IMG/VR virus record: IMGVR_UViG_3300042988_000341
Location: 24,578 to 88,577 of that record
Reading direction: 5' to 3' (one strand)
From: a virus
DNA length: 64,000 bases
Shown: positions 17,753 to 55,644 of the stretch, piece after piece
How the letters are laid out: every line of letters begins with the position of its first letter
Position numbering within the stretch: the first letter of the stretch is position 1
The notes under the pieces: generated by a model
Database searches by the model: none
What the model was told of the DNA's origin: nothing
The model's input: only the letters and a program-made list of their open reading frames with translations
Made by a program: the position numbers and the translations under genes

Positions 17753-18674
17753 GACCCAGGAAGAAGTATTAGAAGTTATAGAGATAGATGAACTTGACAT
17801 AGTATACCTATCATATGATGAACCACAGAAAGAAGACTTCTGGATCAAACTAAAGAACATGGCTCCATGGGCTACTAGAGTAGATGGAGTTCGAGGTAGT
17901 GATGCTGCTCATAAGGCAGCTGCCGCCGCGTCCAATACTGAACGATTCATTCTAGTGGATGGTGACAATATGTTAGAAGAGCACTTCCTGGACGAGTGCC
18001 TAACTATCACCGCTAGTAATCGGGATGCTCAATTCCGTTGGCGGGCCAAGAACTGTATCAATGGCCTCCACTATGGCAATGGTGGCGTATCATGTTGGAC
18101 CAGATCCTATATCAACAATATGCGTACTCACGAGGCCAGTGATCCCACTAATACTCGAACTAACATTGAGTTCTGCCTGGATCCTAATTATTGGCCTATG
18201 CATAACTGCTACTCTACCACCTACCCTAACTATACTCCTCAACAGGCATGGAGAGCAGGATTCCGTGAAGGTGTAAAGATGTGTAATCGCGATGGTCCAA
18301 TGCCTGCTAGCGCCAGCACCTTCCTCCAACATGTATGGCCAGGCAATCTCCAGAATCTCCACATATGGCAAACCATCGGGCGTGACGTAGAGAATGGTCA
18401 GTGGGCTATACTAGGAGCTAGACTAGGCACACACTATCTAATGTTACGTGACTGGGACTATAGAGAAGTACAGGACTTTAGCTGCTTAGACCGACTATGG
18501 GAGCTACATAAGAATGATGATGAGCACGTAGCTCACGAGTTGATGCTAGACTTAAACAGGGCACTAGGCACTACGATAGTGGAGCTAGACGCAAGTGCCT
18601 CTAAATTCTTTAAAGATTACGTTAGTGTAAAATGGCGCAATACTGATATTATGAACAGAGAAACATATGAATGA
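17709..18674 (+). CDS. glycosyltransferase-like protein with DGDN motif
   Basis: The 321-residue protein has a GT-A-like core: strand LDIVYLSYDE, helix, then RFILVDGDNM, where D84-G85-D86 fits a DxD site. Later blocks are CINGLHYGNGGVSCW and the region around QQAWRAGFREGVKM and WQTIGRDVENGQWAILGA. The same blocks occur in the same order in the C-terminal half of the protein at 28267, so the two are homologous. The start used here overlaps the previous gene by 44 nt and has AAGG upstream. A second ATG at 17736 would remove nine residues and reduce the overlap. Confidence 0.6.
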   Translation: MSIITKYKPMKLNDKTQEEVLEVIEIDELDIVYLSYDEPQKEDFWIKLKNMAPWATRVDGVRGSDAAHKAAAAASNTERFILVDGDNMLEEHFLDECLTITASNRDAQFRWRAKNCINGLHYGNGGVSCWTRSYINNMRTHEASDPTNTRTNIEFCLDPNYWPMHNCYSTTYPNYTPQQAWRAGFREGVKMCNRDGPMPASASTFLQHVWPGNLQNLHIWQTIGRDVENGQWAILGARLGTHYLMLRDWDYREVQDFSCLDRLWELHKNDDEHVAHELMLDLNRALGTTIVELDASASKFFKDYVSVKWRNTDIMNRETYE

Positions 18675-21539: not shown

Positions 21540-22801
21540 TTGACATTAATAAACTTTGTGTGCAGCCATGGATGCACCTAGCCAGCTTTAATAATGGCCA
21601 GGTGCCTCTATGTTGCGTTGCTCAACCAGAGCAAGGTATTAATTTAAATACCCAAACGCCGATCCAAATATGGAATAGCCAACAGTTTAAAACTGCTAGA
21701 TTGCAGTTCTTAGCCGGTGAACAACCACCACAATGTAGTGCTTGTTGGCGCGAAGAGGCGGCTGGAGTTAAAAGTCACCGCCAGATTGAGAATACAATGT
21801 GGTCGCGAATCCTGGGTCCAGAGTATCTACAAGAGTTAATTGCTAGTACTGGCGAAGATGGCACTCTTGATAGAAACCCAATTACCTTAGATTTGCGTAT
21901 AGGTAATACCTGTAATCTACAGTGCGTTATGTGTAGGCCGCATGATAGTAGCAGATGGCTAGCTGATAGTCGGAAACTAGCCCAATCATTGACTAGTCCT
22001 GGTGCTCGTGGTGATTGGGAATATAAGGCTACCAGTATCAAGTCAACTGATTGCTTTGACTGGTTCTCTAGACTAGAAACTCAGAATGCCCTGGGCGAAT
22101 TCATGGGAGATATTCAGAGAATTGTCTTTGGCGGCGGCGAGCCACTAATGCTTAAAGAACACTTAGAGTTTATTACTAGACTGGTAGAGTCAGGTCACGC
22201 TGGGAACATTACCCTGGGCTATCATACTAATGGCACTCAATTAACTGAACGATTCATTGAGTTATGGAGTCACTTTAAAGCAGTAGAGTTAATGATTAGT
22301 GTGGACGACTGGGGACAACGTAACGACTACGTAAGATACCCTAGCAGTTGGTCAACTTTGCTAGCTAACCTAGACAGACTAGATAATACTGCTGACAATA
22401 TTAAGGTTAATATCTTGGCTACAGTACATGCTATGAATATCTACAATCTACCTGAGTTCGCCCAGCAGGTCTTAGACCGAGGATGGTCCAAGATAGGTAG
22501 CAGAAATCACGGTCTGTTCTTTGTGGGCACCACCCACTGGCCTCAATATATGAGTACTCAAGTACTACCTGCCACAATTAAAGATCAGGTAGCTAGTCAT
22601 TGGGCTAAATTTCCTGCTATAATGGAGCATCCTCAGTGGCGGAACAGAATTCACCAACAACTAGAGTTCATGCTGAGTAGAGATGAGTCTAGTAGATTCC
22701 CGGACCTCGTTGATTATATCGACCGTCTCGATGACATTAGGCCCATCAAGTTCAAGGATCTATACAGTGAATACTATCAACTCCTTCGAGGCACACAATG
22801 A
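21536..22801 (+). CDS. radical SAM protein, twitch/SPASM-like, 3 of 4
   Basis: The 421-residue protein has N-terminal auxiliary Cys (LCVQPW, PLCCV, CSACWREE), then IWNSQQFKTARLQFLAGE, a segment typical of this twitch family. The core carries LDLRIGNTCNLQCVMC (C126, C130, C133) and VFGGGEPLMLKE. It is coupled by ATGA overlap to both neighbours. The full motif set argues for an active enzyme rather than a decayed copy. Confidence 0.82.
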   Translation: MIDINKLCVQPWMHLASFNNGQVPLCCVAQPEQGINLNTQTPIQIWNSQQFKTARLQFLAGEQPPQCSACWREEAAGVKSHRQIENTMWSRILGPEYLQELIASTGEDGTLDRNPITLDLRIGNTCNLQCVMCRPHDSSRWLADSRKLAQSLTSPGARGDWEYKATSIKSTDCFDWFSRLETQNALGEFMGDIQRIVFGGGEPLMLKEHLEFITRLVESGHAGNITLGYHTNGTQLTERFIELWSHFKAVELMISVDDWGQRNDYVRYPSSWSTLLANLDRLDNTADNIKVNILATVHAMNIYNLPEFAQQVLDRGWSKIGSRNHGLFFVGTTHWPQYMSTQVLPATIKDQVASHWAKFPAIMEHPQWRNRIHQQLEFMLSRDESSRFPDLVDYIDRLDDIRPIKFKDLYSEYYQLLRGTQ

Positions 22802-23811
22802 AACACGAAATCGGCGAAAGTGATATCATATTCATGAGTAAGACGGAGATATCTAAGCACACTGCTGAGTATCTACACTCCAATGGTCCTAACTCATGGA
22901 AGGACTGGTGGTGCAGCGCTGGATTAAGGTCCCTGTACATCAGTCATGATGGGTTAATCTATAGAGGCACGTGTCAGGTAGACGGCGTGATTGGTAGTAT
23001 CTATAACACCGGTAGTCCTAGAGCAGTAGAACTAAGTCAATGGGTTAAATGTACCGCGGATACATGTATGTGTGCTCCCGATATGAGAGCTCCTAAAGTA
23101 GTTAATATTGAAAATAGCAACATTGTTGGCATGACCCATCAATATTTGCCTAAGGCGTACTGGGTTAATAACGCAGAAGTGGATCTGGTCAATGACCCAT
23201 ATGTTACATATAGCCAGGCCCATGAGGAGTTTAAACTAGTCATATGGGAACTAGGTCGACGCTGTAACTATGATTGTTGGTATTGTGGTCCAGATGCCCA
23301 TAATACATACGAGAGTCAAAAGACCCTAGGTTCACTATTAGCGGCGGTCCGCCAACTACAGATTATATGGCTTAATAGTCAACCAGCCAAGTTTGTATTC
23401 GCTGGTGGCGAATCAACATTCAACCCAGACTTCATGGAGTTTGCTAATCATCTACACAAGGACGGTCACAGAATTCATACAACTACCAATGGCAGTCATA
23501 CCACCGCGTACTACACTGAACTAGCTAGGATATCTGATATCTCATTTAGCGCTCACCTCAGTTATCTTGAGACTCCAAACATCGCAAAGAAGTTTATAGC
23601 AAACGTAGCAGCAGCAACCATCAACGCGGGATTAAACTATATCGAGGTCAGAATCATGCTCCAACCAGGTAAATTACTCCAGGCCCAGGAGCTCCATACT
23701 CGCTTAATAGAAGTTACTCCACGTGTTACAGTCGATCTCCTACATAACGAAACTAAGACTACCATTGAATATACCGCCCAAGAAGTCCAATGGGCTACCA
23801 GTCATCAATAA
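22798..23811 (+). CDS. radical SAM protein, divergent, 4 of 4
   Basis: The 337-residue protein has an N-terminal block WCSAGLRSLYISHDGLIYRG with CTADTCMC that differs from copies 1-3 but again offers extra Cys before the core. The radical SAM triad is CNYDCWYC (C156, C160, C163), after the WELGRR segment. The glycine-rich site reads FVFAGGEST. The protein is shorter at its C-terminus. It starts in a 4-nt overlap with copy 3 and ends 2 nt before a 34-residue ORF. It may act on a different substrate or at a different step from the others. Confidence 0.8.
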   Translation: MKHEIGESDIIFMSKTEISKHTAEYLHSNGPNSWKDWWCSAGLRSLYISHDGLIYRGTCQVDGVIGSIYNTGSPRAVELSQWVKCTADTCMCAPDMRAPKVVNIENSNIVGMTHQYLPKAYWVNNAEVDLVNDPYVTYSQAHEEFKLVIWELGRRCNYDCWYCGPDAHNTYESQKTLGSLLAAVRQLQIIWLNSQPAKFVFAGGESTFNPDFMEFANHLHKDGHRIHTTTNGSHTTAYYTELARISDISFSAHLSYLETPNIAKKFIANVAAATINAGLNYIEVRIMLQPGKLLQAQELHTRLIEVTPRVTVDLLHNETKTTIEYTAQEVQWATSHQ

Positions 23812-23813
23812 CT

Positions 23814-23918
23814 ATGCTTAAAACACTAGCTAATCTCCTGTACTATGGCCCACTACTATGGTACAAACAACGCAAGAAACTCAAAGAGCTCCGTCGTCAA
23901 GACCCATTTACCTATTAA
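23814..23918 (+). CDS. 34-residue basic amphipathic peptide
   Basis: This is a tiny ORF squeezed between the last radical SAM gene (2-nt gap) and the sulfotransferase gene (2-nt gap). The first half is hydrophobic (TLANLLYYGPLLWY). The second half is strongly basic (KQRKKLKELRR) and ends DPFTY. The tight spacing on both sides argues that it is a real gene. It could be a membrane-binding anchor. Because it follows four radical SAM genes, it is also a formal candidate for a modified peptide. No leader cleavage motif is evident. Confidence 0.55.
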   Translation: MLKTLANLLYYGPLLWYKQRKKLKELRRQDPFTY

Positions 23919-23920
23919 CT

Positions 23921-24682
23921 ATGAATACAATCATTATTAACGCCCATACCAGAACAGGCAGCGAACTTCTACTAGCTATTCTTCGTAGTCGAGGGTACTA
24001 TACACTAGGTGAAATTGTTACTAACTCGGTGCCACAATCATTCATCACTAATCACAGGCGGGACCCCAACTTCGAACACGAATACTTTGAACAGTTTAAT
24101 CGTGGACTAAGATATCTACTTAACGATACTAATGCGCCTAATAAGGTAGTTAAAGTAATGATCAACCATCGCCATGCTATTAGGCCATATATCTACCAAT
24201 ATGCTACCAGTCAAATACTACTACATCGTCAGGATATGTTTGCTAGTCAGATTAGTCATGGAGTAGCTATGGCCAGTGGCCAATGGATTAAATGGGGCTC
24301 AAATCAACCATTGGAGTGGAAGTCATTGGCTACTCCATTCACTGGCACGTTAGATGCCCAGAACTTCGAGCAACGTCTCCAGTGGAGAATCTCGGACTAT
24401 GAAGAATTACTTGAATCGACACCACCGTATACCAGAGTAGTTATGTACGATGAACTAGTAGAATATGCCCGGGCTAAGCCCCACTCTCTATATACTATAC
24501 CAACTGATCCACCAGTGATTAGTAATATCGAGGAGCTCCAGGACATATATTACAGGTATCTGCCTAGAGTCGAGGCTATTAATGGACGAATCACAGCAAT
24601 CAAAACCTCTGCATGCAATAGTTTAGATAGTACAGATAGTACAGATACCACGTTCGCCCAATACTTAGATAGCCTATGTTAA
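23921..24682 (+). CDS. sulfotransferase-like protein
   Basis: The 253-residue protein is counted from the ATG at 23921. A longer frame open from 23858 would run over the small upstream gene. The N-terminus IIINAHTRTGSELLLAILRS has the 5'-phosphosulfate-binding-loop pattern (RTGSELL). QILLHRQDMFASQISH at about 96-111 fits the 3'-phosphate region of PAPS sulfotransferases. The length is typical of the family. The C-terminus has a short STDSTDT repeat. The acceptor is unknown; a glycan made by the upstream glycosyltransferase-like enzymes is one possibility. It overlaps the SGNH gene by 7 nt. Confidence 0.65.
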   Translation: MNTIIINAHTRTGSELLLAILRSRGYYTLGEIVTNSVPQSFITNHRRDPNFEHEYFEQFNRGLRYLLNDTNAPNKVVKVMINHRHAIRPYIYQYATSQILLHRQDMFASQISHGVAMASGQWIKWGSNQPLEWKSLATPFTGTLDAQNFEQRLQWRISDYEELLESTPPYTRVVMYDELVEYARAKPHSLYTIPTDPPVISNIEELQDIYYRYLPRVEAINGRITAIKTSACNSLDSTDSTDTTFAQYLDSLC

Positions 24683-25434
24683 CCACCAGATACCATCAAA
24701 CAGACTCCGAGGAGCTGCTGGCCTACAATATGGAGCATCAGCCCGCTAGCTGGCGCTGGCATAAGGAGACGTTTGACTATACCTTTAACAGTCGTGGGTG
24801 GAGAATGAATAAGGAGATCGAGGACGTTGATTATTCTAACTATCTCCTGTTCCTAGGGTGTAGCTATACTGTGGGCATTGGGCTGCCAGTAGAAGAAACA
24901 TTCCCCGCAATTATTGCCCAGCAGACTGGCAGGGACTATATTAATGCTGCCCAAGGTGGCACCAGTACCTATTACTCATGGCATACATGTATTGACCTTA
25001 TCGCCACCCTGCCAGGGGCACCTGGTGCCATTGTTATTAACTGGCCAGCTCTCCACCGCAATATGTATTGGCAGGCTAACGGTCAGCCTGTCCATTGTAG
25101 TCCACGTTTGATGAATAATGTGCCCGCCGAGTTTAAAACAGGGTTCACTAGTCACTGGATGAATGAGACTGACCTGGTCAATAAATTTAATAAGGCCAGG
25201 CTGAGTCTCCAGCTGTTATGCGCGGCCAAGAATATTCCACTATGGGATTTCACTCAATTTGATACTCCTGTACAGCAGCAGACTGGTGTGCCGCTGATCA
25301 TGGCCGATACTGGCAGTAGTGACTCTAATGGTCGGTGGGCCAGAGATATTCAGCGTGGTAGTCAGTGGACCGCGCATCTTGGTCCCGACCATCACCAGTA
25401 CGTGGCCAATCGATTCCTCGCGAACTTTTCATAA
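24676..25434 (+). CDS. SGNH/GDSL-like hydrolase
   Basis: The 252-residue protein has block I as LLFLGCSYTVGIG, with candidate nucleophile S63. A Gly in the AAQGGTSTYY region and the strand AIVINWPALHRNMYW fit later SGNH blocks. Near the C-terminus, HLGPDHHQYVANRF can supply the Asp and His of the triad. No signal peptide is seen, so it acts in the cytoplasm or as part of the particle. Family members act as esterases or acyltransferases, often on glycans. It is the last gene of the left arm of the island; a 128-nt gap follows. Confidence 0.65.
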   Translation: MLTTRYHQTDSEELLAYNMEHQPASWRWHKETFDYTFNSRGWRMNKEIEDVDYSNYLLFLGCSYTVGIGLPVEETFPAIIAQQTGRDYINAAQGGTSTYYSWHTCIDLIATLPGAPGAIVINWPALHRNMYWQANGQPVHCSPRLMNNVPAEFKTGFTSHWMNETDLVNKFNKARLSLQLLCAAKNIPLWDFTQFDTPVQQQTGVPLIMADTGSSDSNGRWARDIQRGSQWTAHLGPDHHQYVANRFLANFS

Positions 25435-25536
25435 CTTTATTTTTCTACTTACTCGTCCCAACTGCGTTGCAAATACTTTTTAGTGGTGGACGGCTAAAAT
25501 AGCTAATAATCGCCTAATTAACGGTATTTTTCACTG

Positions 25537-25544
25537 AATAAATA
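25537..25544 (+). promoter_or_regulatory. late-promoter-like octamer AATAAATA
   Basis: The 128-nt gap before the carbamoyltransferase gene contains AATAAATA 18 nt upstream of its ATG. No clear Shine-Dalgarno follows; the leader is AT-rich. Nothing else was recognised in the gap. Confidence 0.45.
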
Positions 25545-25562
25545 TAAAGAACTTTATCTACT

Positions 25563-27026
25563 ATGAACTACATTGGAATATCTTGTGGCTACCATGATGC
25601 TGCTATTACCGTTATTGACGGTACTGGTAATATAGTGTATGCTGGTCATGCTGAGCGGTATGGTGGTGGTAAACATACTCCACACTTGAATAGTGGCATT
25701 ATTAATGCTGCTATGGCTAGTATCAATACTAGTACTGATAGTTATAGTCTACATTATTATGAGCGTCCACTAGTTAAATGGTTACGCAGATGGTGGGCTG
25801 GTGAGAGGCCATCGTGGAGGAGTATAGATATAGGTAGTATTATTGGTACGCAGAATATGGCTCTACTTGGTTATGATAGTAGGAAGATTAATACTTATAA
25901 TCATCATCTTAGTCATGCGGCTGCTGGCTTCCAAACTAGTCCATATATGGATGCTACTGTGGTTATTATTGATGCTATTGGTGAGTTTGAATGTGTTACT
26001 ATATGGAAGGCAGGGTGGGATGATGGTAGGGCAAAATATACGAGATTGTATACTAGATATTATCCGAATTCGATCGGACTCTTTTATACTGGAATTACTA
26101 GAAGGTGTGGCCTACGCCCATTAGACGAGGAGTATATCTTAATGGGTATGGCTGCCTATGGTGTTCCTAGATATGTTGAGGAGATGAGGCGGTTATTAGA
26201 TATGAATTTACATCGTGGTTGTGATTGGTTCTTGCCTGATGCTGATATCTATGACTTGGCTGCTAGTGCACAGGTGCTGGTGGAGGAGCTAATAGTGGAG
26301 GTGGTGGAGATTGCTAAAAAAATTGGAGCTAGCTCCAATTTAGTATACGGTGGTGGTCTAGCATTAAACTGTAGGGCGAATAGATTGCTGGGTGATTATT
26401 ATTCTAATGTATGGATTATGCCTAATCCTGGTGATGCTGGTAGTAGTTTAGGCGCGGCCGCTCTAGGTTATGGTGGCCGAATTAAGTTTAATAATTGCTA
26501 TTTGGGCACTAATATTAGTGGACAGTATCCGGTTACGGAGTTGTTGGAGGAGTTATTATCTACTGGTATAGTTGGAGTAGCATCAGGTAGGGCGGAGTTT
26601 GGTCCACGAGCCTTGGGTAATAGAAGTTTATTAGCTGACCCTAGAGGTAAGGATATTCGAACTAGGGTGAATAATATTAAACAACGCCAGCAATTTAGAC
26701 CATTTGCTCCTGTTATCTTAGAGGAGCATGCCGATATGTACTTTGATCTGGTACCGGGTGTTAATAGTCAATATATGCAGGTAGTGGCTAGATGTAGAGT
26801 GCCAGAATTATTCCCTGCTATTGTTCATTATGATGGTACCAGTAGAGTTCAAACAGTAGCGGCAGATGGTTCTGGCATCCGACTATTATTGGAGGCATGG
26901 TACGAGAGGACAGGTTGCCCTATGTTATTAAATACCTCGCTGAATATTCGAGGTAGGCCTATGGTTAATACCCAGGAGGATGCTGCTCAGTTTGAGGCTG
27001 AATATGGTGTTCGGGTATTAAGTTAA
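25563..27026 (+). CDS. NodU/TobZ-family O-carbamoyltransferase
   Basis: The 487-residue protein has an N-terminal Kae1-like domain with ISCGYHDAAITVID, HHLSHAAAGF (H114 and H118 as probable iron ligands) and VVIIDAIGEFE (D137). GGLALNCRANRLL and PNPGDAGSSLGAA follow. The C-terminal domain has GRAEFGPRALGNRSLLADPR and FRPFAPVILEE, both diagnostic of the carbamoyltransferase C-domain. It should transfer carbamoyl from carbamoyl phosphate via carbamoyl-AMP to a hydroxyl group, usually on a sugar or secondary metabolite. The stop overlaps by 4 nt the end of the convergent 27023 gene. Gene length is near the lower end for the family. Confidence 0.88.
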   Translation: MNYIGISCGYHDAAITVIDGTGNIVYAGHAERYGGGKHTPHLNSGIINAAMASINTSTDSYSLHYYERPLVKWLRRWWAGERPSWRSIDIGSIIGTQNMALLGYDSRKINTYNHHLSHAAAGFQTSPYMDATVVIIDAIGEFECVTIWKAGWDDGRAKYTRLYTRYYPNSIGLFYTGITRRCGLRPLDEEYILMGMAAYGVPRYVEEMRRLLDMNLHRGCDWFLPDADIYDLAASAQVLVEELIVEVVEIAKKIGASSNLVYGGGLALNCRANRLLGDYYSNVWIMPNPGDAGSSLGAAALGYGGRIKFNNCYLGTNISGQYPVTELLEELLSTGIVGVASGRAEFGPRALGNRSLLADPRGKDIRTRVNNIKQRQQFRPFAPVILEEHADMYFDLVPGVNSQYMQVVARCRVPELFPAIVHYDGTSRVQTVAADGSGIRLLLEAWYERTGCPMLLNTSLNIRGRPMVNTQEDAAQFEAEYGVRVLS

Positions 27027-27595
27027 ACGCCGCATACTACTAGATGAATACGCTCCTCTAGCCCGCCATTATATACCCAGTGAACTTCCCTAGTATCTAA
27101 TTCATACCAATGATTATCTAGTGGAAGATGATAACAGCTAGCGGTAGTAGGTAGTTCACTTCTGTCTAGGTTCATATCAGTGGTAGCATGTGCTACCTGT
27201 GCTCCTGGATTAGTTTTTAATACTAGATGATATCTGACCTCGGCGTCCTTATGTACACTTAGGCCAGTTTTAGGTGGTAATCTCATAAATCTAATTCTAC
27301 CTAGCCTAATATCAAGATGTTCTTGTAACTCCTCAATACAACGGCGAACTGTCCAGGTATTATCAATATTCCACTGGGTGAAGTCTACCTCGTGCGCTCT
27401 GTAACCACCAATACTTGATGAATATAAACTACCAGTGCCGTCTCTCCAGCAATCTATACTGGTTGGTTGAGAATTTAATGCTAGTTGATTCATGTCCTGC
27501 CATACATCAGCTAGTATTTTATTATCTAATAGTTGCTGTAAATCAGCTAGTACAGCCTGGGCAGGCGCGGTTAAATTTAATTTTTTAAGAAACAT
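27023..27595 (-). CDS. 2-oxoglutarate/Fe(II) oxygenase, Asp/Asn hydroxylase-like
   Basis: The 190-residue protein has GLSVHKDAEVRYHLVL, giving H115-x-D117, and a distal EVHWVYNGG with H172, the HxD...H facial triad of Fe(II)/2OG enzymes. ERIHLVVCG gives R182, suited to bind the 2-oxoglutarate carboxylate. The layout fits the aspartyl/asparaginyl beta-hydroxylase group. A paralogue lies at 29728 with near-identical core motifs. It directly follows the methyltransferase gene on the minus strand (stop then ATG with no gap). Confidence 0.72.
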   Translation of the reverse strand: MFLKKLNLTAPAQAVLADLQQLLDNKILADVWQDMNQLALNSQPTSIDCWRDGTGSLYSSSIGGYRAHEVDFTQWNIDNTWTVRRCIEELQEHLDIRLGRIRFMRLPPKTGLSVHKDAEVRYHLVLKTNPGAQVAHATTDMNLDRSELPTTASCYHLPLDNHWYELDTREVHWVYNGGLEERIHLVVCGV

Positions 27596-28266: not shown

Positions 28267-29748
28267 ATGATAGAAGATGATGAAGACTACTGGGAAATTC
28301 CTGATAATATCGATAGGAGTTCGTTTGATTTTACTTGGCGTCCTGACCTCTATGAGCCTCCGTATATTCATCAATTCCCTATTAAATCTAATATAGATGG
28401 CGGTCCAAGATATATTGCTGCTGGCGCAACCGATATTAAATATCATACCGAGCCGATTGCTACTATTATTCCAGACTGGAGTAAATGGTGGATACCGGAC
28501 ACCATCGATCGGAATTCATTTGATTTTACATGGGAGCCCGATATCTACGAGCCTCCATATATTCATCAATTCCCTACTAAATGGGCCAATGATGCTGGCC
28601 CTAGATACATAGCTACTGGCGCTACTGATTTTAAATATCACGATGAACCAGTAGCTGATATTAATATTGACTGGAGTAAATGGTGGATACCGGACAATAT
28701 TGATTGTAGTAATTTTGATTTTACATGGGTGCCAGGAAAAACTGATAGGCCATACATATATCAATTCGGTACCCAACATCAAAAGACAGGCGGACCTAGA
28801 TATATTCAACCAGGTAGCAGAAGATTTAAATATGAATCGTCTCAACACGCAATTAAATTACCAGATACTGATAATTGGGTAGTACATCCTGATCTAGAAG
28901 TTATTGACTTTGATTGGAGCTGGCACCCAGACAGTACTGACAGCATTTATAACTATGTTTTTGGCACAAGAGATATACCTCCACAGGAAATAAATTTAAT
29001 TACCTACAAGATGGCTACCGGAGCACCTAGTAAATATTCAGATATTATGGCCAACGCTAGATGGCAGGATCTAGATATTATATTCGTTAGTAATGGTGAG
29101 GTCGGCGAACAGCAACGATATGATAGATTGTGCGAGGTGGCTGGCAGAGAAGTTAAATGGGTACGAGGCGTTAATGGCAGAGAGAATGCCCTTAGCGCGG
29201 CAGCCCAATTATCCACTACCCAATGGTTTATCTTATTCCCTGGTAAATTATGGGCAGATGCGGCGTTTGATTTTAATTTCCAACCCAATCGAACATATGA
29301 GCCTAAGCATTATATTTTTTATGCCAAGAACCCATTAAATGGATTGGAATATGGGCATCAGGCAGCAGTATGTTATAATCGACAATTAGTATTAGAGACT
29401 ATCAACTACGGCCTCGACTTTACCATGAGTAAATTACACGATATTGTGCCAGTATTAAGTGGAGTAGCCCAATATAACAGTAGTGTTATTATGACCTGGC
29501 GCACGGCATTCCGTGAGGTGATTAAATTACTACATGCTGGTGATGCTGAGAGCGCCGCCAGATTAGAAGTTTGGCGAACAGTGGCAGACGGAGAGAATGC
29601 TGAGTGGAGTATAGCAGGCGCTAATGATGCGTTGGATTATTATACGGAAGTATCGGGTGATATATCAAAACTCATGGACACATTTAGTTGGCAGTGGTTG
29701 GAAGAATATTTTAACAGCAAATATTCATTAACAACCGCAGACCACTAG
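28267..29748 (+). CDS. tandem-repeat protein with degenerate GT-like C-terminal domain
   Basis: The 493-residue protein has three 65-residue repeats (about 9-73, 74-138, 139-203) and a partial fourth (204 to about 250). Each has a WxIPDxID start, FDFTWxPD, PPYIHQFPTK-like and GPRYIATGATDFKYH-like segments. The C-terminal half matches the protein at 17709: VRGVNGRENALSAAAQ, WFILFPGKLWAD, AKNPLNGLEYG, WRTAFREVIKLL, NAEWSIAGAND. The DxD of that relative (DGDN) is replaced by PGKL, so transferase activity is probably lost. It is flanked by two oxygenase genes, the nearer of which overlaps its 3' end by 21 nt. Confidence 0.7.
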   Translation: MIEDDEDYWEIPDNIDRSSFDFTWRPDLYEPPYIHQFPIKSNIDGGPRYIAAGATDIKYHTEPIATIIPDWSKWWIPDTIDRNSFDFTWEPDIYEPPYIHQFPTKWANDAGPRYIATGATDFKYHDEPVADINIDWSKWWIPDNIDCSNFDFTWVPGKTDRPYIYQFGTQHQKTGGPRYIQPGSRRFKYESSQHAIKLPDTDNWVVHPDLEVIDFDWSWHPDSTDSIYNYVFGTRDIPPQEINLITYKMATGAPSKYSDIMANARWQDLDIIFVSNGEVGEQQRYDRLCEVAGREVKWVRGVNGRENALSAAAQLSTTQWFILFPGKLWADAAFDFNFQPNRTYEPKHYIFYAKNPLNGLEYGHQAAVCYNRQLVLETINYGLDFTMSKLHDIVPVLSGVAQYNSSVIMTWRTAFREVIKLLHAGDAESAARLEVWRTVADGENAEWSIAGANDALDYYTEVSGDISKLMDTFSWQWLEEYFNSKYSLTTADH

Positions 29749-30306
29749 ATGAATTCTCTCCTGCTCACCGCCGTTATATACCCAATGAGGTTCTCTAGCG
29801 TCTAATTCGTACCAGTGATTATCTTGTGGTATATGATAGCATTGTGCTACCGATGGTAGTTCAATATCACTGTCAGTAGTTACATGATGGGCGAATACAA
29901 CTGCTGGATTAGTTTTTAATACTAGATGATACCGTAATTCATAATCTCGATGAACACTAAGGCCAGTTCTGGGCAATAATCTCATAAACCTAATTCTACC
30001 CAGTTCAATGCCCAGAGTATCTCTAAGTAACTCAAGCTGCTGTCTGACATACCACGACTGATCGATATTCCATCGAGTAAAGTCATTCTCATTGAATAGA
30101 TAAACATCATTCTTATAGTCGTATTTACTGCCGATACAGTCCTGCCATGGATCAATACTATCTGGGCGACTAGTCAAACCTACCTGATTCCTCATATGCC
30201 AGATATTGTCGTTCTCTGACCACGCTGTTTGTGTCTCCAATATAGTGATTAAATCATTATTAATTCTGTTGCTATCACTTGTTATATCTAGCTTCTTTAA
30301 GAACAT
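29728..30306 (-). CDS. 2-oxoglutarate/Fe(II) oxygenase, paralogue
   Basis: The 192-residue protein has GLSVHRDYELRYHLVL, giving H119-x-D121, PHWVYNGG giving H174, and ERIHLVVCG giving R184. Most core residues match the protein at 27023; the N-terminal 80 residues differ, which suggests different substrate recognition. The Shine-Dalgarno AGGAG lies upstream on the minus strand, and a CTAAATA box is found at 30327-30333. Its 3' end overlaps the repeat-protein gene by 21 nt. Confidence 0.72.
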   Translation of the reverse strand: MFLKKLDITSDSNRINNDLITILETQTAWSENDNIWHMRNQVGLTSRPDSIDPWQDCIGSKYDYKNDVYLFNENDFTRWNIDQSWYVRQQLELLRDTLGIELGRIRFMRLLPRTGLSVHRDYELRYHLVLKTNPAVVFAHHVTTDSDIELPSVAQCYHIPQDNHWYELDAREPHWVYNGGEQERIHLVVCGC

Positions 30307-40359: not shown

Positions 40360-40788
40360 ATGTTCATACTCTCCATCACTCCTGACTGGTTCATTCATCT
40401 CCTGCTCATTGCTAGCGCTATTGCGTTGACAGTGGGCATTACTCTTGGTAGCGTCAAACTCATCAAGCAATACACAACCCTACTCAAAGTCTGTGGCTCA
40501 ATCGTACTAGTACTCGCACTGCTACTAGAAGGCGCTCTACTAGACAATCACGTATGGCAAGAACGTGTATTAGAAGTAGAAGCAAAACTAGCTAAGGCAG
40601 AAGCAGAGGCTGCTAAGGCAAACACCACAATCACTGACCGGGTAGCAACTAAGCAAGCCAAGGTCCGAGAAAAGACTGTCATTGTCAAACAATACATTGA
40701 CCGTGAAGTTACCAAGTACGATACTACTTGTGTAATCCCAAAGCCATTCATTCGAGCGCACAACGATGCTGCGGAGCAAGCAAAATGA
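40360..40788 (+). CDS. inner-membrane spanin-like protein (Rz-like)
   Basis: The 142-residue protein is counted from the ATG at 40360; a GTG at 40345 lies inside the promoter-like octamer. Two hydrophobic segments lie at about 11-35 and 42-62, followed by a long Ala/Glu/Lys helix (EVEAKLAKAEAEAAKANTTI) and a C-terminal periplasmic-like region with one Cys. Classical i-spanins have one membrane segment, so this assignment rests on the coiled coil and on the o-spanin-like lipoprotein two genes downstream. Confidence 0.6.
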   Translation: MFILSITPDWFIHLLLIASAIALTVGITLGSVKLIKQYTTLLKVCGSIVLVLALLLEGALLDNHVWQERVLEVEAKLAKAEAEAAKANTTITDRVATKQAKVREKTVIVKQYIDREVTKYDTTCVIPKPFIRAHNDAAEQAK

Positions 40789-41207
40789 AAATCAACGAAA
40801 TCATTACAGAAGCTAAGAAAGCTAATACTAAGACTGCCAGAGCGGCATTCGGCAAGCGCACAAGTTCTAAGACTAAACTAAGTGACAGAGAGCAAGAAAA
40901 AAAGAAAGCAGACAGTGATGATGCTTGGGCGAGACTGATGGCATACATCGAAGCTGAGAAGAAGAATGAAGGCATCTCAGAAAACATGGATCACTCTAAG
41001 GATGGTCGTGCTGTCGAAGAACTCCGTGCTGCCTTAGAGAATAAAAGAAGTCAGTTACAGTCAGCAGATAGCGATGAAGTATACGACATCATTGACGAGA
41101 TTATGACTAGAATCGCAAAGTCACACAGTATCTCAGGTCAGAAGCTACACGATATGTGGGTTGACAAGTACCGAGAAGTTCCTGATACGTGGGTCATGGA
41201 GATATAA
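40785..41207 (+). CDS. MKINE-type protein, possible capsid-targeted, 1
   Basis: The 140-residue protein starts in a 4-nt overlap with the spanin-like gene. The N-terminus is MKINEIITEAKK. The I-T-E|A step resembles the L/I-x-E|A/G sites cut by T4-like prohead proteases in internal-protein leaders. The remainder is highly charged and helical (DREQEKKKADSDDAWARL; YDIIDEIMTRIAKSH). Charged helical content fits proteins packed inside a capsid. The role is inferred only. Confidence 0.5.
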   Translation: MKINEIITEAKKANTKTARAAFGKRTSSKTKLSDREQEKKKADSDDAWARLMAYIEAEKKNEGISENMDHSKDGRAVEELRAALENKRSQLQSADSDEVYDIIDEIMTRIAKSHSISGQKLHDMWVDKYREVPDTWVMEI

Positions 41208-41518
41208 TGAACAACAACGAGAACAAAGAAGTACTAAAAACAGTCACTGGATTCATCATTATCTTGATGCTAGTGGTATTCACACTAACCGGTTGTTCAA
41301 CGGTAGTACCAGTTACCGCTAAGTTCCCTGACGCGCCAGAGCGCATCAAAGTGCCATGCCCTCAACTACAGAAACTAGACGACGGTGCTAAACTAAGTGA
41401 CGTAGCTAATACAGTCACAATCAACTACAGCACATACTACGTGTGTGCTGTAAAGAACGATGCTTGGATCGAGTGGTATGAAGTTCAGAAAAATATATTT
41501 GAAAAGGCAGCAAAATGA
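41207..41518 (+). CDS. outer-membrane spanin-like lipoprotein (Rz1-like)
   Basis: The 103-residue protein starts at the ATG at 41207 within the previous stop. A charged N-terminus is followed by the hydrophobic GFIIILMLVVFTLTGC. LTGC (C30) is a lipobox, so the mature lipoprotein starts at C30. The mature part has Pro-rich VPVTAKFPDAPERIKVPCPQ and a C-terminal helix. This fits an o-spanin that joins an inner-membrane partner to disrupt the outer membrane at lysis. It is not nested within the i-spanin gene. Confidence 0.75.
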   Translation: MNNNENKEVLKTVTGFIIILMLVVFTLTGCSTVVPVTAKFPDAPERIKVPCPQLQKLDDGAKLSDVANTVTINYSTYYVCAVKNDAWIEWYEVQKNIFEKAAK

Positions 41519-41988
41519 AAATCAACGAGGTTCTGTATAAAAAAACTTCATATACATGGAGCAGCCTAAATGAGGGCATGGATCTCGACGATAGAATGGA
41601 ATTATTTGAAGAGTTAAGTGTAACTAATAACTTAACAGAAACAAACAATAATGATTCAGTAGAACAATTTAAACTTCTATGGTCAATGTCGGATGTACCT
41701 GAACGAAATAATAAATATATTGTTGTCCCTACGTGTTTAATGAACAATAGAGTTATGTTATTAGATAAAGTAACAGTTATGGCATTTGTTAGTAGAAATC
41801 AACAAGAAATGACGTTTAGTGATAATGGACAATCAAAAACATATCCTTCTGAATTAATAAGAGAAAGGGCAACATACAATGTCTTTACCTTCGCAACAAC
41901 AGAAAAATATGAGTCATTCCACACGATGGTTGCTATGAGATTTGAATTGTCATTGCCTACTATAAAAGAAATAGAAACGAGAGAGTAA
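41515..41988 (+). CDS. MKINE-type protein, 2
   Basis: The 157-residue protein begins MKINEVLYKKTSYTWSSLNE|G, in which L18-N19-E20 before G21 fits a prohead-protease-like site. The rest is globular with YIVVPTCLMNNRVMLLDKV and a YPSELI segment. Codon use is more AT-rich than in neighbours (many ATA, TTA, AAT). Coupled by ATGA overlap to the lipoprotein gene. Confidence 0.5.
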   Translation: MKINEVLYKKTSYTWSSLNEGMDLDDRMELFEELSVTNNLTETNNNDSVEQFKLLWSMSDVPERNNKYIVVPTCLMNNRVMLLDKVTVMAFVSRNQQEMTFSDNGQSKTYPSELIRERATYNVFTFATTEKYESFHTMVAMRFELSLPTIKEIETRE

Positions 41989-41990
41989 AA

Positions 41991-42674
41991 ATGAAAATCA
42001 ACGAAATCATCAGCGAAGGCAAAACAGGCCCAGGCTTGTGGGCAAACATTCACGCTAAGCGCAAGCGTGGCGAGCGGATGCGTAAGCCAGGCAGTAAAGG
42101 CGCACCTACTGATCAGGACTTTAAAGACGCTGCTAGTGAAGGAGTGGCGAAAACAAATGTATCTAAGTATAAAGACCTAGGTGCCACTAAAGATACTACT
42201 CACTTCATTAAAAATGTAACAACTGGTGAGATTGTTAGTCCGCACCGTAGTAAGCAAGACGCAGAAGATGCTCTAGTTGCTCACTATCGTGGTCCAAGAG
42301 ATGGTAACGAATATAAGATTGTTCGTGCTAGAAAAGAAGGTGTGGCGGAAGACATACTAGAAGAAACTTACAACAACGATGACGAGTTCTTCGAAGCATA
42401 CGGCGTTATGGAATATAACGATGAGATGATTAACGAAGCTGAGTATCAGGGTCACAAAGTCACACTAAACAAACCTATGCAAGGCGATGTAAAAAAGTTC
42501 AAAGTATATACTAAGAACGAAAAGGGCAACGTAGTCAAAGTCAACTTCGGTGACCCTAACTCAACAATCAAAAAGAACAATCCTGCTCGTCGTCGTAGCT
42601 TTAGAGCACGACACAACTGCGATAATCCGGGCCCAAAAACCGGCGCTCGTTATTGGTCATGTAGAAAGTGGTGA
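41991..42674 (+). CDS. MKINE-type protein with conserved phage C-terminal domain
   Basis: The 227-residue protein begins MKINEIISE|GKTG, again with an I-x-E|G step. A basic N-terminal part (HAKRKRGERMRKPGSKG) is followed by an acidic middle with a second INE|A site (MINEAEYQGHKVTL). The C-terminal domain runs from KKFKVYTKNEKGNVVKVNFG through NPARRRSFRARHNCDNPG to YWSCRKW. I recognise this domain from prohead or capsid-associated proteins of T4-like marine phages, but its function is not established. Confidence 0.6.
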   Translation: MKINEIISEGKTGPGLWANIHAKRKRGERMRKPGSKGAPTDQDFKDAASEGVAKTNVSKYKDLGATKDTTHFIKNVTTGEIVSPHRSKQDAEDALVAHYRGPRDGNEYKIVRARKEGVAEDILEETYNNDDEFFEAYGVMEYNDEMINEAEYQGHKVTLNKPMQGDVKKFKVYTKNEKGNVVKVNFGDPNSTIKKNNPARRRSFRARHNCDNPGPKTGARYWSCRKW

Positions 42675-42678
42675 TTAA

Positions 42679-42987
42679 ATGAGTGAACAAAGCGAAAAGG
42701 GACAATTCATCGAGAAGCTAATCTTCGCCCTACTACCACTACTAATCGCTGGTGTAGGCTATCTACTATCAGCAGTAAGCAGACTAGAACACGAAGTAAC
42801 GATACTCAATCAAAAAGCAAGTCTAGTAGTCACGGCAGACAACAAGCAAGCTACGAATACTGGTAGTGAACTAGCACGAGAGAAGTTACGACAAGAGTTA
42901 GAAAAGGAAATTCAACTCAATCGAGATCAAATCCAAGAGAACAAACAGCATATAGCAGTACTCGAAGAACGAATCAAGAAGAAATAA
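42679..42987 (+). CDS. membrane-anchored coiled-coil protein
   Basis: The 102-residue protein has one hydrophobic segment (FALLPLLIAGVGYLLSAV, about 16-33) followed by a long charged helix, SRLEHEVTILNQKASLVV and then LRQELEKEIQLNRDQIQENK. It is the last gene before a bidirectional terminator in a lysis-like group. It could be a holin accessory or an extra spanin component; no family was recognised. Confidence 0.55.
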   Translation: MSEQSEKGQFIEKLIFALLPLLIAGVGYLLSAVSRLEHEVTILNQKASLVVTADNKQATNTGSELAREKLRQELEKEIQLNRDQIQENKQHIAVLEERIKKK

Positions 42988-43011
42988 AAAAGGACCCAGT
43001 GGGTCCTTTTT
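42986..43011. terminator. bidirectional Rho-independent terminator
   Basis: The stem GGACCC (42992-42997), loop AGT and GGGTCC (43001-43006) are flanked by an A run on the left and TTTTT on the right. It therefore works on both strands. It lies between convergent genes ending at 42987 and 43029. Confidence 0.9.
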
Positions 43012-43028: not shown

Positions 43029-43856
43029 TTACTCACTAGCGTCAGCAGTAGGGTTCTTACAGTACGCACGTTTTTGATTAGTCAACTTACCGTAGTCAAC
43101 TGGCCATTCTTGACCAGGCTGTACTTCACGTGCATTGCTAGGGAAAGTATACTTGACACCAGCTTCTTGCTGAATTTGAGCGATAGGCTTACGGAACTTA
43201 GTCAAGTCATTGCCTAGATTAGGATACGGCTTGACGTGTGGGAACCACCAGCCAGCAACTTCACCCGTCGCGTTATTGATAACAATCTTGTAGAAAGCGT
43301 GTGGGACAACAACACCCTTGCCGATTGTTGGGTTACCAGCACCATAAACACTACCTACGTAAATGGTATATGGTTGATTCAACTGAACCGCCCAACCACG
43401 TACTGATGTCTCTAGCAACTTCCAGATACCACGGTTCAATGAGCCTGCTTGTGGTGCCATGTTAGTCATTAGAAAACTCTCGTACTCAACTTGCTGGTCC
43501 CATGATAGATCACCATCTGGTGCCATGTGGCCACGGTCATAGCCGGTGGCAGCGTAGTCGTCTGGCGTAGCGCCATTAGCGACAAACTGATTAGTAGTAA
43601 AAGCGTTAGTACGTGGGAAACAACCTAGAGCATTCTTAGGTACGAGTTCATAGGTAACGAACTTAGGTAGTTTAGCGGCAGCATCATAGCCGACTAGATA
43701 TGCTTGCTGACATAGCGGTTGAACGCCAGCAGTTTGTGGGAAGCCGTACGGAGCGTGTACTCGACACTGGTCAACCGGGAATGGTGCCCGTTGTGTCCAG
43801 GCAAATGATGATACTGATGCTAATGCCAGTACCAAGGTTACGATTAGTTTATTCAT
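43029..43856 (-). CDS. secreted DNA/RNA non-specific endonuclease (NUC1 family)
   Basis: The 275-residue protein has a signal peptide MNKLIVTLVLALASVSSFA (cleavage near residue 19). The catalytic motif is GYDRGHMAPDGDLSW (D107-R108-G109-H110), and SLNRGIWKLLE supplies the Asn for Mg binding. Cys residues in the mature part could form disulfides, in line with periplasmic location. It would degrade host or competing DNA outside the cytoplasm, or act on DNA released at lysis. A Shine-Dalgarno AAGGAA precedes the ATG on the minus strand. Secreted nucleases are uncommon in T4-like phages. Confidence 0.85.
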   Translation of the reverse strand: MNKLIVTLVLALASVSSFAWTQRAPFPVDQCRVHAPYGFPQTAGVQPLCQQAYLVGYDAAAKLPKFVTYELVPKNALGCFPRTNAFTTNQFVANGATPDDYAATGYDRGHMAPDGDLSWDQQVEYESFLMTNMAPQAGSLNRGIWKLLETSVRGWAVQLNQPYTIYVGSVYGAGNPTIGKGVVVPHAFYKIVINNATGEVAGWWFPHVKPYPNLGNDLTKFRKPIAQIQQEAGVKYTFPSNAREVQPGQEWPVDYGKLTNQKRAYCKNPTADASE

Positions 43857-43875
43857 GATTAAATTCCTTCGTAGT

Positions 43876-43882
43876 TATTTAG
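43876..43882 (-). promoter_or_regulatory. late-promoter-like box CTAAATA, minus strand
   Basis: CTAAATA on the minus strand, 19 nt before the nuclease ATG with AAGGAA in between. Divergent partner of the box at 43896. Confidence 0.4.
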
Positions 43883-43895
43883 CTGATTGGATCGT

Positions 43896-43903
43896 GATAA
43901 ATA
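43896..43903 (+). promoter_or_regulatory. late-promoter-like octamer GATAAATA
   Basis: GATAAATA lies 17 nt before the ATG at 43921. No good Shine-Dalgarno follows. Confidence 0.45.
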
Positions 43904-43920: not shown

Positions 43921-44880
43921 ATGAGAATAAACGAAGTCAAATCCCTTAACGATAAAGTACAGCAAGTCAAGAAATTTGCTGCTTGGGCTATCGACCAACT
44001 AGGTATCGAGAATCCACCGGACATTGAGTACGGTACAGATATGAGTAGAGTGCTCAAGCAACGCTCATTCGGCAGTACTAATTCAGCTGGCAAAATCTGG
44101 GCACACTGCTCAAACAGAAACGCAGCAGACGCTATGAGAACACTATGCCATGAATTGTGCCACCACCGTCAATTCGAATTAGGCACTGCTACTAACGACA
44201 TGGACGACGAGCAACGTCTCAAAATCGAAGACGAAGCAAACGCTATCGCTGGTCGTATGCTTAGAGTATACGGCAAACTCGACAAAACAATTTACGAATC
44301 CACTAGCAGTGGCTGGAAGTTTGCTAAGTTTATGGTCACGGAAGATCAAATATTAAACTTCGGTGCGGCATATTACGCTAGGTTAAAACGTGATCGTATT
44401 ACTAATCCCGAAATTCCGTTCAGAGACGGTAATATATTAGCAAGTACTCTTCGTCGATTAGCGGAACACTCCTTGATTGAGTCCAGTCATCCAGCCATTG
44501 CTGACTTGATTAGCTTCCAGAGTTATTTAAAAACTATTGATGGCCGAAGAGGAGTGCGAATGGCCGTGGGATCTAAGGTCGCAGTAATTCAATTTGAACC
44601 ACACACCTCATCTGCGGTGATTGAAGTCCGTGGACACGAGACACCAAAAGAGATATCACAGATTGAGCATAAAGCGGACGGCGTGATTGATTACATTATA
44701 TTCAGTGATGGAACAATGTTCCCCGATGCTGAGTTTACATCAAAAGGCATGGGTGGTGAATACGAAGGACTCACAACGCTATTCTATTCCACTAAGCAGC
44801 AAGCAAGTAACGCAGTTATATTAGCAGCACTTAAAGTACCATCAACTTGGAACTTCAGTACCGTAAATATTAAAGATTAA
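43921..44880 (+). CDS. HExxH metallopeptidase-like protein
   Basis: The 319-residue protein is counted from the ATG at 43921, after a GATAAATA box; a frame open from 43855 would include that box. It begins MRINEV like the MKINE proteins but lacks an adjacent IxE|A/G site. AMRTLCHELCHHRQFELG gives H77-E78-x2-H81, with an acidic helix DEQRLKIEDEANAIAGRML that can supply a third ligand. The C-terminal 190 residues have no match I recognise. Possible roles are processing of virion proteins or of host wall; unproven. Confidence 0.65.
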   Translation: MRINEVKSLNDKVQQVKKFAAWAIDQLGIENPPDIEYGTDMSRVLKQRSFGSTNSAGKIWAHCSNRNAADAMRTLCHELCHHRQFELGTATNDMDDEQRLKIEDEANAIAGRMLRVYGKLDKTIYESTSSGWKFAKFMVTEDQILNFGAAYYARLKRDRITNPEIPFRDGNILASTLRRLAEHSLIESSHPAIADLISFQSYLKTIDGRRGVRMAVGSKVAVIQFEPHTSSAVIEVRGHETPKEISQIEHKADGVIDYIIFSDGTMFPDAEFTSKGMGGEYEGLTTLFYSTKQQASNAVILAALKVPSTWNFSTVNIKD

Positions 44881-44895: not shown

Positions 44896-45525
44896 ATGTA
44901 CCACGTAACCCTAGAATTACTCCAACAACTATGCCCTAAGACTAAAAAGTCAGTCTTAGAAGCATACGTGCAGCCACTACAAGAAGTATGTGACTACTAC
45001 GAGATCACTCAAACTCCTGAACGCTTAGCTGGCTTCCTAGCACAAGTAGCACACGAGAGTGGCGCATTCAACTTTGTCAAAGAGAACTTGAACTACGGCG
45101 CTAAAGGTCTAGTCGGCACATTCAAAAAGTACTTCCCTGATGAAGCATCGGCTAAGCCATATGAGCGTCAGCCAGAGAAGATTGCTAATCGTGTTTATGC
45201 TAATCGTATGTCTAACGGTGACGAAGCAAGTGGTGACGGCTATCGCTTCTGCGGCCGTGGCCTAATTCAATTGACTGGCCGTGCTAACTATACTAAGTTC
45301 GCAGAAGACTTAGGCATCTCTATTGACGAATGCGTTGCTTATATGGAAACACCTAACGGCGCGGTAAGTAGTGCTGGTTGGTTCTGGGATAACAACAATC
45401 TAAGTCAATGGTGCGATAAGGGCGACTTTGTTATGCTAACTAAGCGTATCAACGGCGGCACAATCGGCTTAGCTGATCGTCAACATCACTATCAAATCGC
45501 TCTCGACTTACTAAAGCAACAATAA
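44896..45525 (+). CDS. GH19 chitinase-type endolysin
   Basis: The 209-residue protein has FLAQVAHESGAFNFVKENLN, in which E54 and E63 fit the catalytic pair of GH19. YRFCGRGLIQLTGRANY is the family signature. The protein is a single domain without signal peptide or binding domain, as in many Gram-negative phage endolysins. It cleaves peptidoglycan glycan strands. The neighbouring spanin and holin-like genes complete a lysis set. AAGGA precedes the start. Confidence 0.88.
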   Translation: MYHVTLELLQQLCPKTKKSVLEAYVQPLQEVCDYYEITQTPERLAGFLAQVAHESGAFNFVKENLNYGAKGLVGTFKKYFPDEASAKPYERQPEKIANRVYANRMSNGDEASGDGYRFCGRGLIQLTGRANYTKFAEDLGISIDECVAYMETPNGAVSSAGWFWDNNNLSQWCDKGDFVMLTKRINGGTIGLADRQHHYQIALDLLKQQ

Positions 45526-53724: not shown

Positions 53725-55644
53725 ATGAGTGATACTAACAAAGTTGTCTTAACAGTTAATAAGGGTGTTGACATAGATGCTCTTATTGAGGAAGTACTTG
53801 CTACTGGTATTACGATATTCGATATCTATCCAGGTAGTAACAGAAACGTAGCATTCACTATGACACGTGAACAGATGGAATTCTGGGAACAAGATGGCCG
53901 AGTGATGGGTTGTCGTTGGGGAACTAAGGCAGAGAATGGTATCGTTGAGAGAACTGCTGCTAGTGTTAATAATCTTGTATTCGGTAGATTACCAGATCAA
54001 ATAACAGATGCTCCTACTAGTTATATGGAATCTAATTGGGGACTATACGAATGTGTTAGTAAAACAACTAGACCATATGGCACTACTGGAAAAGTAGGTT
54101 CTACTATAAATTATACACTTGATGGCACTGATGTTGATGTAATTATACAGGATACTGGTATCGAGTATAACCATTCTGAGTTTAAAGATTCCTTTGGTAA
54201 GAATAGAATTAAAAAAATAAATTGGGACGCCGCAGAAATAGTAACTGGGTTCACCCAAGTTAGTAAGCGTATAGTTACATATAATTTTAATTATGATACA
54301 GTTTTGCCACAGATAGGCTCGTATGTTACGATCACTGGCGTATATTCATGGGAAAATCAGGGCTTCCTACCTGGGCCAAATCCTGGTATTATTCCAAGTG
54401 AATATAATATAGATAGAGTTCTAGTGACCTCAGTCACTAGTACTAGTATAACCGTTGATTATATTACTCCTCGAATCAACAATGTGTCATCTATAGATGG
54501 AGCACTGGTGGCATGGATACAAGAAGGCGAGGTAACGGGCCTGCCAAAGTTCTATACAGACGCTAGTGGTCATGGAACCAATGTTGCTAGTATTGCTGCC
54601 GGTAAAACTTATGGATGGGCTAAGAATGCTAATGTTTACCCCATGCACATAAATTTTGACCAAGATACAGGTGGTATGGATACTGGTGCTAGCTTCGTTG
54701 CTATTAGAATGTTCCATTTAAACAAACCAATTAATTCTAAAACTGGAGTTAAGAACCCAACTATAGTTAATATGAGTTGGGGGTCATTCTATGACCCTAC
54801 TACGGGTTATATAACCTCCGGTAATTGGAGAGGCAATAATTGGACTTTTACGGATACGGAAATTTTAAATAAAGTAGGATTTGTATCATTTAGTGGATTA
54901 TCAGGTCTTCGAAACCCAGATATCGATGCTGAGATACAAGATTGTATTGATGTAGGAGTAATATTTGTTGGAGCAGCGGGTAATAATGGGTATTTGGTAT
55001 CTAATAAAACTGATAGTGACTACAATAATTATGTAACTTTAGTGACAGGAAATAAACTTTACTATCATCGAGGGTCATCGCCAGCTTCAGCGGATAATGT
55101 GATATGTGTAGGGGCTATTGATTATACATATCGTGGCGAGGAAGTGAAACCGAAACCATCTTATTCTCCTGTCAACTCAACAGCCAAAGCATACTTCAGT
55201 TCCTGCGGCCCAAGAATCGATGTGTGGGCACCCGGCGGTATGATATTAGGAGCATGGTCAGCAGCCGGAAGAACATCTCCATATTCGCCAACCGCTGGAC
55301 CATGGCAATATGGTTCGACATCTTACACAAATGCTAAAGAATCCGGTACCAGTCAAGCGTCACCGCAGGTCACTGGAGTATTAGCTTGTCTTCTACAAGC
55401 GAACCCGCACTTTAATCAGTATGATGTTAGACGTTGGATAGCAGAGAACAGTGCTGACGGTAAAGTAGCTAATGTAGCAAATTCATCGAATAATACCACG
55501 GCGTTCTCAACTACAACTTCGTATAACGATCCATATAATCTACAAGGCTCAACCACAAAATACTTGTACATGCCATATGCAACTGACACTAACGGCAACG
55601 TATCAGGCTCAGGCTCATTCTCAGGAGGAGGCTTTTCACTATGA
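53725..55644 (+). CDS. subtilisin-family (S8) serine protease, virion-type
   Basis: The 639-residue protein has the full triad: VIIQDTGIE (D143), DASGHGTNVASIAAG (H283) and ESGTSQASPQVTGVLA (S543), plus the oxyanion AAGNNGY (N420). An unusually long insert separates D143 and H283. It contains strands such as IGSYVTITGVYSWENQGF and VLVTSVTSTSITVDY like those of the fibre modules. The N-terminal 100 residues are unrelated and could dock to the particle. No signal peptide is present. A function in virion entry or fibre maturation is inferred from the context. Confidence 0.88.
   Translation: MSDTNKVVLTVNKGVDIDALIEEVLATGITIFDIYPGSNRNVAFTMTREQMEFWEQDGRVMGCRWGTKAENGIVERTAASVNNLVFGRLPDQITDAPTSYMESNWGLYECVSKTTRPYGTTGKVGSTINYTLDGTDVDVIIQDTGIEYNHSEFKDSFGKNRIKKINWDAAEIVTGFTQVSKRIVTYNFNYDTVLPQIGSYVTITGVYSWENQGFLPGPNPGIIPSEYNIDRVLVTSVTSTSITVDYITPRINNVSSIDGALVAWIQEGEVTGLPKFYTDASGHGTNVASIAAGKTYGWAKNANVYPMHINFDQDTGGMDTGASFVAIRMFHLNKPINSKTGVKNPTIVNMSWGSFYDPTTGYITSGNWRGNNWTFTDTEILNKVGFVSFSGLSGLRNPDIDAEIQDCIDVGVIFVGAAGNNGYLVSNKTDSDYNNYVTLVTGNKLYYHRGSSPASADNVICVGAIDYTYRGEEVKPKPSYSPVNSTAKAYFSSCGPRIDVWAPGGMILGAWSAAGRTSPYSPTAGPWQYGSTSYTNAKESGTSQASPQVTGVLACLLQANPHFNQYDVRRWIAENSADGKVANVANSSNNTTAFSTTTSYNDPYNLQGSTTKYLYMPYATDTNGNVSGSGSFSGGGFSL

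Follow-up and report, generated by a model that had tools for sequence, protein, structure and literature searches.

The leader of gene e (lysozyme) of bacteriophage T4 is among the closest described parallels for the control of the gene considered here. According to section 29 of PMC3014915, the long early transcripts of gene e are poorly translated and its late transcripts are without the 5′ arm of the hairpin. The promoter motif lies in or beside the 5′ arm of this hairpin at the ribosome site, a layout that is also found in 16 relatives of the nuclease gene described below. Nucleases carried by phages have likewise been described, as with dns, dns2 and dns3 of Campylobacter, where the text of PMC10893306 on these prophages links non-transformability to the dns genes and the presence of external DNase activity to dns. 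The CJIE4 member of this group is a NUC1 nuclease with a signal-peptide-like start. The Campylobacter genes differ from the present one in belonging to prophages with a transformation phenotype, and the CJIE4 protein is 27.8% identical to it over 56% of the query. For Yersinia phage YerA41, the account of the particle in PMC7354516 gives endo- and exonucleases among 63 particle proteins. No tested function for a phage-borne exported nuclease was evident among the open-licence papers listed.

The window, the whole stretch of 64,000 nucleotides that was analyzed, comes from a linear virus record of 88,577 bases (IMGVR_UViG_3300042988_000341) with several T4-type traits, namely a gp55-like late sigma, a gp47-like protein and a clamp loader. 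A Megablast search of window positions 30001-55000 against phages gave no match. The gene under study encodes a putatively exported nuclease that resembles the NUC1 family (Serratia nuclease, Anabaena NucA, EndoG and EXOG) in its PF01223 profile, its catalytic positions and its predicted EndoG/EXOG/NucA fold, and is unlike the known NUC1 enzymes in forming its own viral lineage, with four invariant cysteines and a modified active-site motif in most members. What is new here is the timing evidence for this exported nuclease gene.

Table 1. The nuclease gene and the features around it, in positions of the window.
Feature	Position	Strand	Remarks
i-Spanin-like protein	40360-40788	+	Weak Rz-like matches; best lysis match E 0.0034
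o-Spanin-like lipoprotein	41207-41518	+	phrog_456, Rz-like, E 1.4e-6; LysC, 0.018
Small coiled-coil protein, single hydrophobic stretch	42679-42987	+	Convergent neighbour; Rz-like matches only at E 0.018 and 0.068
Stem-loop, bidirectional terminator-like	42987-43011	both	T-runs read on both strands; between convergent genes
Putatively exported NUC1-family (Endonuclease_NS) nuclease	43029-43856	−	ATG start; 275 aa; exact ORF
DRGHMA catalytic motif	43521-43538	−	Residues 107-112 of the nuclease
Predicted Sec-type signal peptide	43800-43856	−	MNKLIVTLVLALASVSSFA, then W; residues 1-19, SFA before W20
Shine-Dalgarno-like AAGGAA of the nuclease	43864-43869	−	Read from the leader
Late-promoter-like motif GCTAAATA of the nuclease	43876-43883	−	Imperfect match to TATAAATA
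Late-promoter-like motif GATAAATA of the divergent gene	43896-43903	+	Read in the intergenic gap
Putative metallopeptidase, MRINEV start	43921-44880	+	Divergent neighbour; profile matches below cut-offs
Endolysin	44896-45525	+	phrog_181, E 2.8e-72

The Nuclease and Its Relatives

The initial annotation had described a secreted NUC1 nuclease with an intact DRGHMA site, and the observation as a whole was confirmed as real. The protein matches the Pfam profile PF01223 at E 5.1e-38 (131.4 bits against a cut-off of 23) and the PHROG family phrog_14168, 'nuclease', at E 3.1e-33, its sequence is like those of the solved EndoG, NucA, EXOG and Serratia nucleases, and the DRGHMA motif can be read intact. 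R82, D107, H110, N141 and E149 are invariant in 43 aligned rows, the window among them; H110, N141, E149 and R82 align with NucA, the histidine being catalytic in NUC1 enzymes and the asparagine and glutamate their metal-site residues. The profile score, together with the conserved histidine and the metal-site asparagine and glutamate, places the protein in NUC1 by sequence. A structure model built from the 43 rows, with a mean pLDDT of 76.8 and values below 50 at residues 107-119, the active-site stretch, was matched by Foldseek to EXOG and EndoG (E about 5e-11, TM about 0.55-0.69), which points to a beta-beta-alpha metal fold. The four cysteines that are invariant in the same 43 rows (C31, C49, C79 and C266) would suit a disulfide-bonded exported enzyme.

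A scan of IMG/VR found 331 of 332 stretches to be related to the window nuclease, and the set studied comprises the best 80 of these 331, at 70-79% identity. Seventy-seven sequences were delimited, 56 of them distinct and the window included, with the starts of the relatives set at the methionine nearest the expected length. L004 and L078 are part of the leader, signal-peptide and tree counts, from which L063, L068, L076 and L079 are left out, as the patterns missed them. Exactly one family match was present in each of 16 records searched. DKGH, in which the arginine of DRGH is replaced by lysine, is found in 74 of the 77 sequences, and DRGHM in the other three (the window, L004 and L070); since most relatives read DKGH, a search with DRGH alone matched only three loci, two of them at the nuclease. 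In the rows shown, DRGH (within residues 107-112) is paired with NMAPQ (within residues 131-136) in the same three sequences. In almost all rows with DKGH the partner is NMSPQ, and the two sites may have changed as a pair at the active site. A search for bacterial relatives, keyed on conserved peptides, found one related stretch among 23, at 40% identity on a 10 kb contig of an Actinomycetota MAG, a count that is no proof that bacteria have no relatives.

More distant members of the family are annotated in Klebsiella phages Muenster, RaK2 and K64-1, Yersinia phages GN1 and YerA41, Xanthomonas phage XaC1 and Sinorhizobium phage Phosso, and the annotated phage NUC1 genes encode proteins 29.6-36.2% identical to that of the window. 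Eight distant homologues from the phage collection were translated, and seven, including those of GN1, YerA41, Muenster, XaC1 and Phosso, have by eye a signal-peptide-like start; in the eighth, probably not from a phage, the start is longer and includes a hydrophobic stretch, also by eye. An Acinetobacter 'phage', MD-2021a, was set aside, as its neighbours look chromosomal. The Muenster homologue is annotated as periplasmic and has TAAATA at −28, and seven of the eight distant homologues, with GN1, YerA41, XaC1 and Phosso among them, have no TAAATA within 60 nt before the start. No lysis gene is annotated near the annotated phage NUC1 genes in the stretches examined. YerA41_018, 35.5% identical to the window protein and annotated 'phage particle associated protein', would by gene-number offset be g167, which Table 3 of PMC7354516 lists as middle-expressed and present in particles. 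This homologue is thus apparently middle-expressed and particle-associated, which counts against a simple story.

Predicted Export Signal

Signal peptides were judged by a pattern of our own and by hydropathy. All 77 sequences have K or R at residues 2-4 and A, G or S directly before the mature start W[TNE]QR, and the least hydrophobic signal core among them still scores 2.1; the window's small-x-small site and hydrophobic core agree with the clear signal peptide noted at the outset. Mean identity is 43% in the signal peptide versus 81% in the mature part, and the median dN/dS is 0.46 (331 pairs) versus 0.098 (598 pairs). These values indicate strong purifying selection on the nuclease in the 77 measured sequences, and letters that drift while a property is kept give the leader peptide the look of a selected export signal. 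The in silico support for export is strong, and the protein, a putatively active enzyme, is presumably secreted in the infected cell. An exported nuclease would be kept away from the host chromosome until lysis, so that the earlier argument to this effect follows.

Late-Promoter-Like Motifs and Leader Hairpins

The 64-nt gap between the nuclease and metallopeptidase genes has two late-promoter-like motifs pointing outward, and divergent late-like motifs were found in L004 as well. The nuclease motif of the window, GCTAAATA with TAAATA at −25, falls short of NATAAATA. Of 54 distinct nuclease leaders, 38 carry TAAATA at a distance of 20-45 nt ahead of the start (29 of 44 co-directional with the upstream gene, 7 of 8 divergent and both of the two without an upstream gene), and 16 do not. 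The leaders of other genes in the same loci, used as controls, have it in 95 of 699 cases, giving an odds ratio of 15 and a Fisher value of 4e-19, where p-values are nominal because the sequences are related, and where crude ORF starts in the controls depress the control rate. The window's own record encodes a gp55-like late sigma, which matches T4 gp55 at E 6e-5 and phrog_12791, 'sigma factor for late transcription', at E 3.1e-73; T4 gp55 as a query had matches in 5 of 9 records searched. A motif in most leaders of the family, with an imperfect copy in the window, suggests that the nuclease gene would be transcribed late. In the same record, outside the window (L096, 116-2211), a gp47-like (SbcD-like) gene adjoins the gp55-like sigma gene on the same strand.

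Leaders were also searched for a hairpin, defined as a stem of at least 8 bp around the ribosome site. Such a stem is found in 16 of the 38 nuclease leaders with TAAATA and in none of the 16 without it, compared with 14 of 95 motif-bearing controls (p 0.001 versus the nuclease) and 64 of 604 controls without the motif. The 16 hairpin leaders are all called co-directional (16 of 44, from six upstream gene clusters) against none of 8 divergent leaders (one-sided p 0.04), with one of the 16, L024, being doubtful: its co-directional upstream ORF may be spurious, because the next gene is of a kind that lies divergent in other loci, and the split would then be 15 to 1. The same script gave an 11 bp stem for T4 gene e, with motifs at −32 and −19, and a 12 bp stem without a motif for T4 ipI. 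In an RNA model with an assumed start point, the ribosome site opened clearly in the late transcript for only 6 of 29 co-directional leaders and for 2 of the 6 divergent ones; the model gave no value for T4 gene e. Hairpin control of translation, which is proven in T4 for gene e and only predicted here, is likely in some relatives only. The window's own leader has no long hairpin, but rather a 6 bp stem of a size reached by shuffles about half the time, and does not have the layout of gene e-type translational silencing.

Surroundings of the Gene

A bidirectional terminator had been reported opposite the nuclease gene. The terminator scan put the stem on the minus strand only, and found four terminator-like sites against 4.7 expected from shuffles; with the scan at shuffle level, the call therefore rests on the position, on the T-runs of both strands and on the presence of the stem in L004, which support the claim where the scan count does not.

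The spanin assignments in Table 1 are weak, and a protein of L015 related to the i-spanin-like protein also has weak matches to Rz-like families. The small coiled-coil protein is an unproven holin-like or spanin-like candidate. The two spanin-like genes and the endolysin gene all lie within about 2.3 kb of the nuclease, so that its description as next to the lysis genes holds for the window. It does not hold for the family: counting homologues of this window's spanin and endolysin genes only, 17 of 80 loci have one no more than 3 kb away, and among the loci with 3 kb of sequence on both sides the figure is 8 of 45.

The position of the nuclease among lysis genes is not conserved, and the neighbours themselves vary widely. 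Contig ends apart, 28 upstream-neighbour labels were found over 81 records, and on a tree of the 56 distinct mature sequences, 27 labels (one of them 'contig end') changed at least 33 times; since these labels depend on crude ORF calls and on single-linkage clustering, the true number of contexts may be lower. Given these varied contexts and few lysis-gene neighbours, the nuclease gene has the look of a cassette, often equipped with a promoter of its own, rather than of a fixed part of a lysis cluster. An HNH endonuclease gene (cluster 6, its PHROG match checked for L005) occurs near the nuclease in 14 loci, two genes upstream in L002, L005 and similar ones, and might help to move the cassette.

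Four neighbour proteins in the window (40785-41207, 41515-41988, 41991-42674 and 43921-44880) start with MKINEI, MKINEV or MRINEV. These tags resemble the MKTYQEFIAEA start of the T4 internal proteins ipII and ipIII, which likewise adjoin gene e. A strict tag pattern recovered two of these window ORFs, those at 40785 and 41991, and the remaining two were recognized by eye. Across the 80 loci the pattern matched 81 ORF starts, compared with one in the reversed sequence. The tagged proteins may be packed in the phage head.

Elsewhere in the window, positions 18667-27026 read as a large modification cluster, with four radical-SAM proteins in tandem, of which three pass the Pfam cut-off, the first falls just below it and one has a SPASM domain. 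A carbamoyltransferase and an Asp/Asn hydroxylase-like gene (27023-27595, minus strand) follow, and the ORF at 29728-30306 (minus strand) is by eye similar. A subtilase-family protease (Pfam E 5.7e-33) is encoded at 53725-55644, and the long repetitive ORFs before it look structural by eye.

Possible Roles of the Nuclease

The best explanation, to which about an even chance is given, is that a late-made, Sec-exported NUC1 nuclease, expressed from a T4-type late promoter, clears host nucleic acid at lysis. The promoter would fire the nuclease gene along with the lysis and structural genes, and the product would pass to the periplasm, where the phage genome and the cytoplasmic chromosome are out of its reach. 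At lysis, it would meet the spilled host DNA and RNA and degrade both, and the degradation of this viscous debris would free the virions. Export and late production would together restrict it to nucleic acid that lies beyond the cytoplasmic membrane, and to the time from late infection on. Clearing debris would explain export, late timing, the silence of read-through transcripts and the unfixed position of the gene. Against it count the 16 of 54 leaders that are motif-free, the imperfect motif of the window and the weak linkage to lysis genes.

Superinfection exclusion, in which the periplasmic nuclease destroys the DNA of later phages as it crosses the envelope, as is said of host periplasmic endonuclease I and T4 DNA, is unlikely. 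It is made less likely by the fact that T4 Imm, Sp and other such exclusion proteins are made early, whereas under late-like motifs and lysozyme-like hairpins the cell would stay unprotected through much of the cycle. The export signal does fit, and, in what PMC6832632 says of the T-even phages, exclusion blocks secondary genomes at translocation, which would leave their DNA within reach of a periplasmic enzyme. Exclusion would thus explain export, but not timing, and the evidence leans to a role at lysis because of the late-like motif (imperfect in the window), its presence in most relatives and the gene e-like hairpins of some.

The other explanations that were weighed do less well. It is quite unlikely that the gene is a moron whose product breaks down external DNA as a phosphorus source or prevents natural transformation, for which the Campylobacter genes with their non-transformability and external DNase (PMC10893306), the NUC1 homology of the CJIE4 nuclease and the wide variation of nuclease neighbours can be cited; those precedents are prophages, which control of DNA uptake fits better, and late-like control leaves little time to feed the cell. 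A nuclease that leaves with or on the virion is very unlikely. The annotation of YerA41_018 and the nucleases among the YerA41 particle proteins (PMC7354516, in its account of the particle) speak for it, but a signal peptide directs the protein away from capsid assembly, particle association may be carry-over from the lysate, and the YerA41 homologue is a distant one. The least probable of the explanations is a modulator of lysis timing, where the nuclease would erase the periplasmic DNA of secondary phages, a proposed signal for lysis inhibition of the T4 type, and so keep lysis from being delayed. Such DNA is named as a possible signal in the discussion of lysis inhibition in PMC6832632, late production suits the moment of holin control and the window nuclease is near lysis genes, yet that closeness is not conserved in the family, and broad nuclease specificity would make for a blunt tool.

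A broader reading, which is doubtful, would be that a widespread T4-type class times nucleic-acid clearance with lysis, by means of a mobile, self-contained nuclease cassette that is late-only in the manner of lysozyme and partly hairpin-locked, and that possibly erases a lysis-delaying signal of periplasmic DNA. Phage lysis is usually described as the breaking of three envelope layers. An exported nuclease with late timing, present in 331 stretches and under strong purifying selection in the 77 sequences measured, would suggest that handling the released nucleic acid pays too. The layout of the leader makes this timing directly testable, and timing would help to choose between exclusion and a role at lysis wherever else a phage gene is annotated as a periplasmic nuclease.
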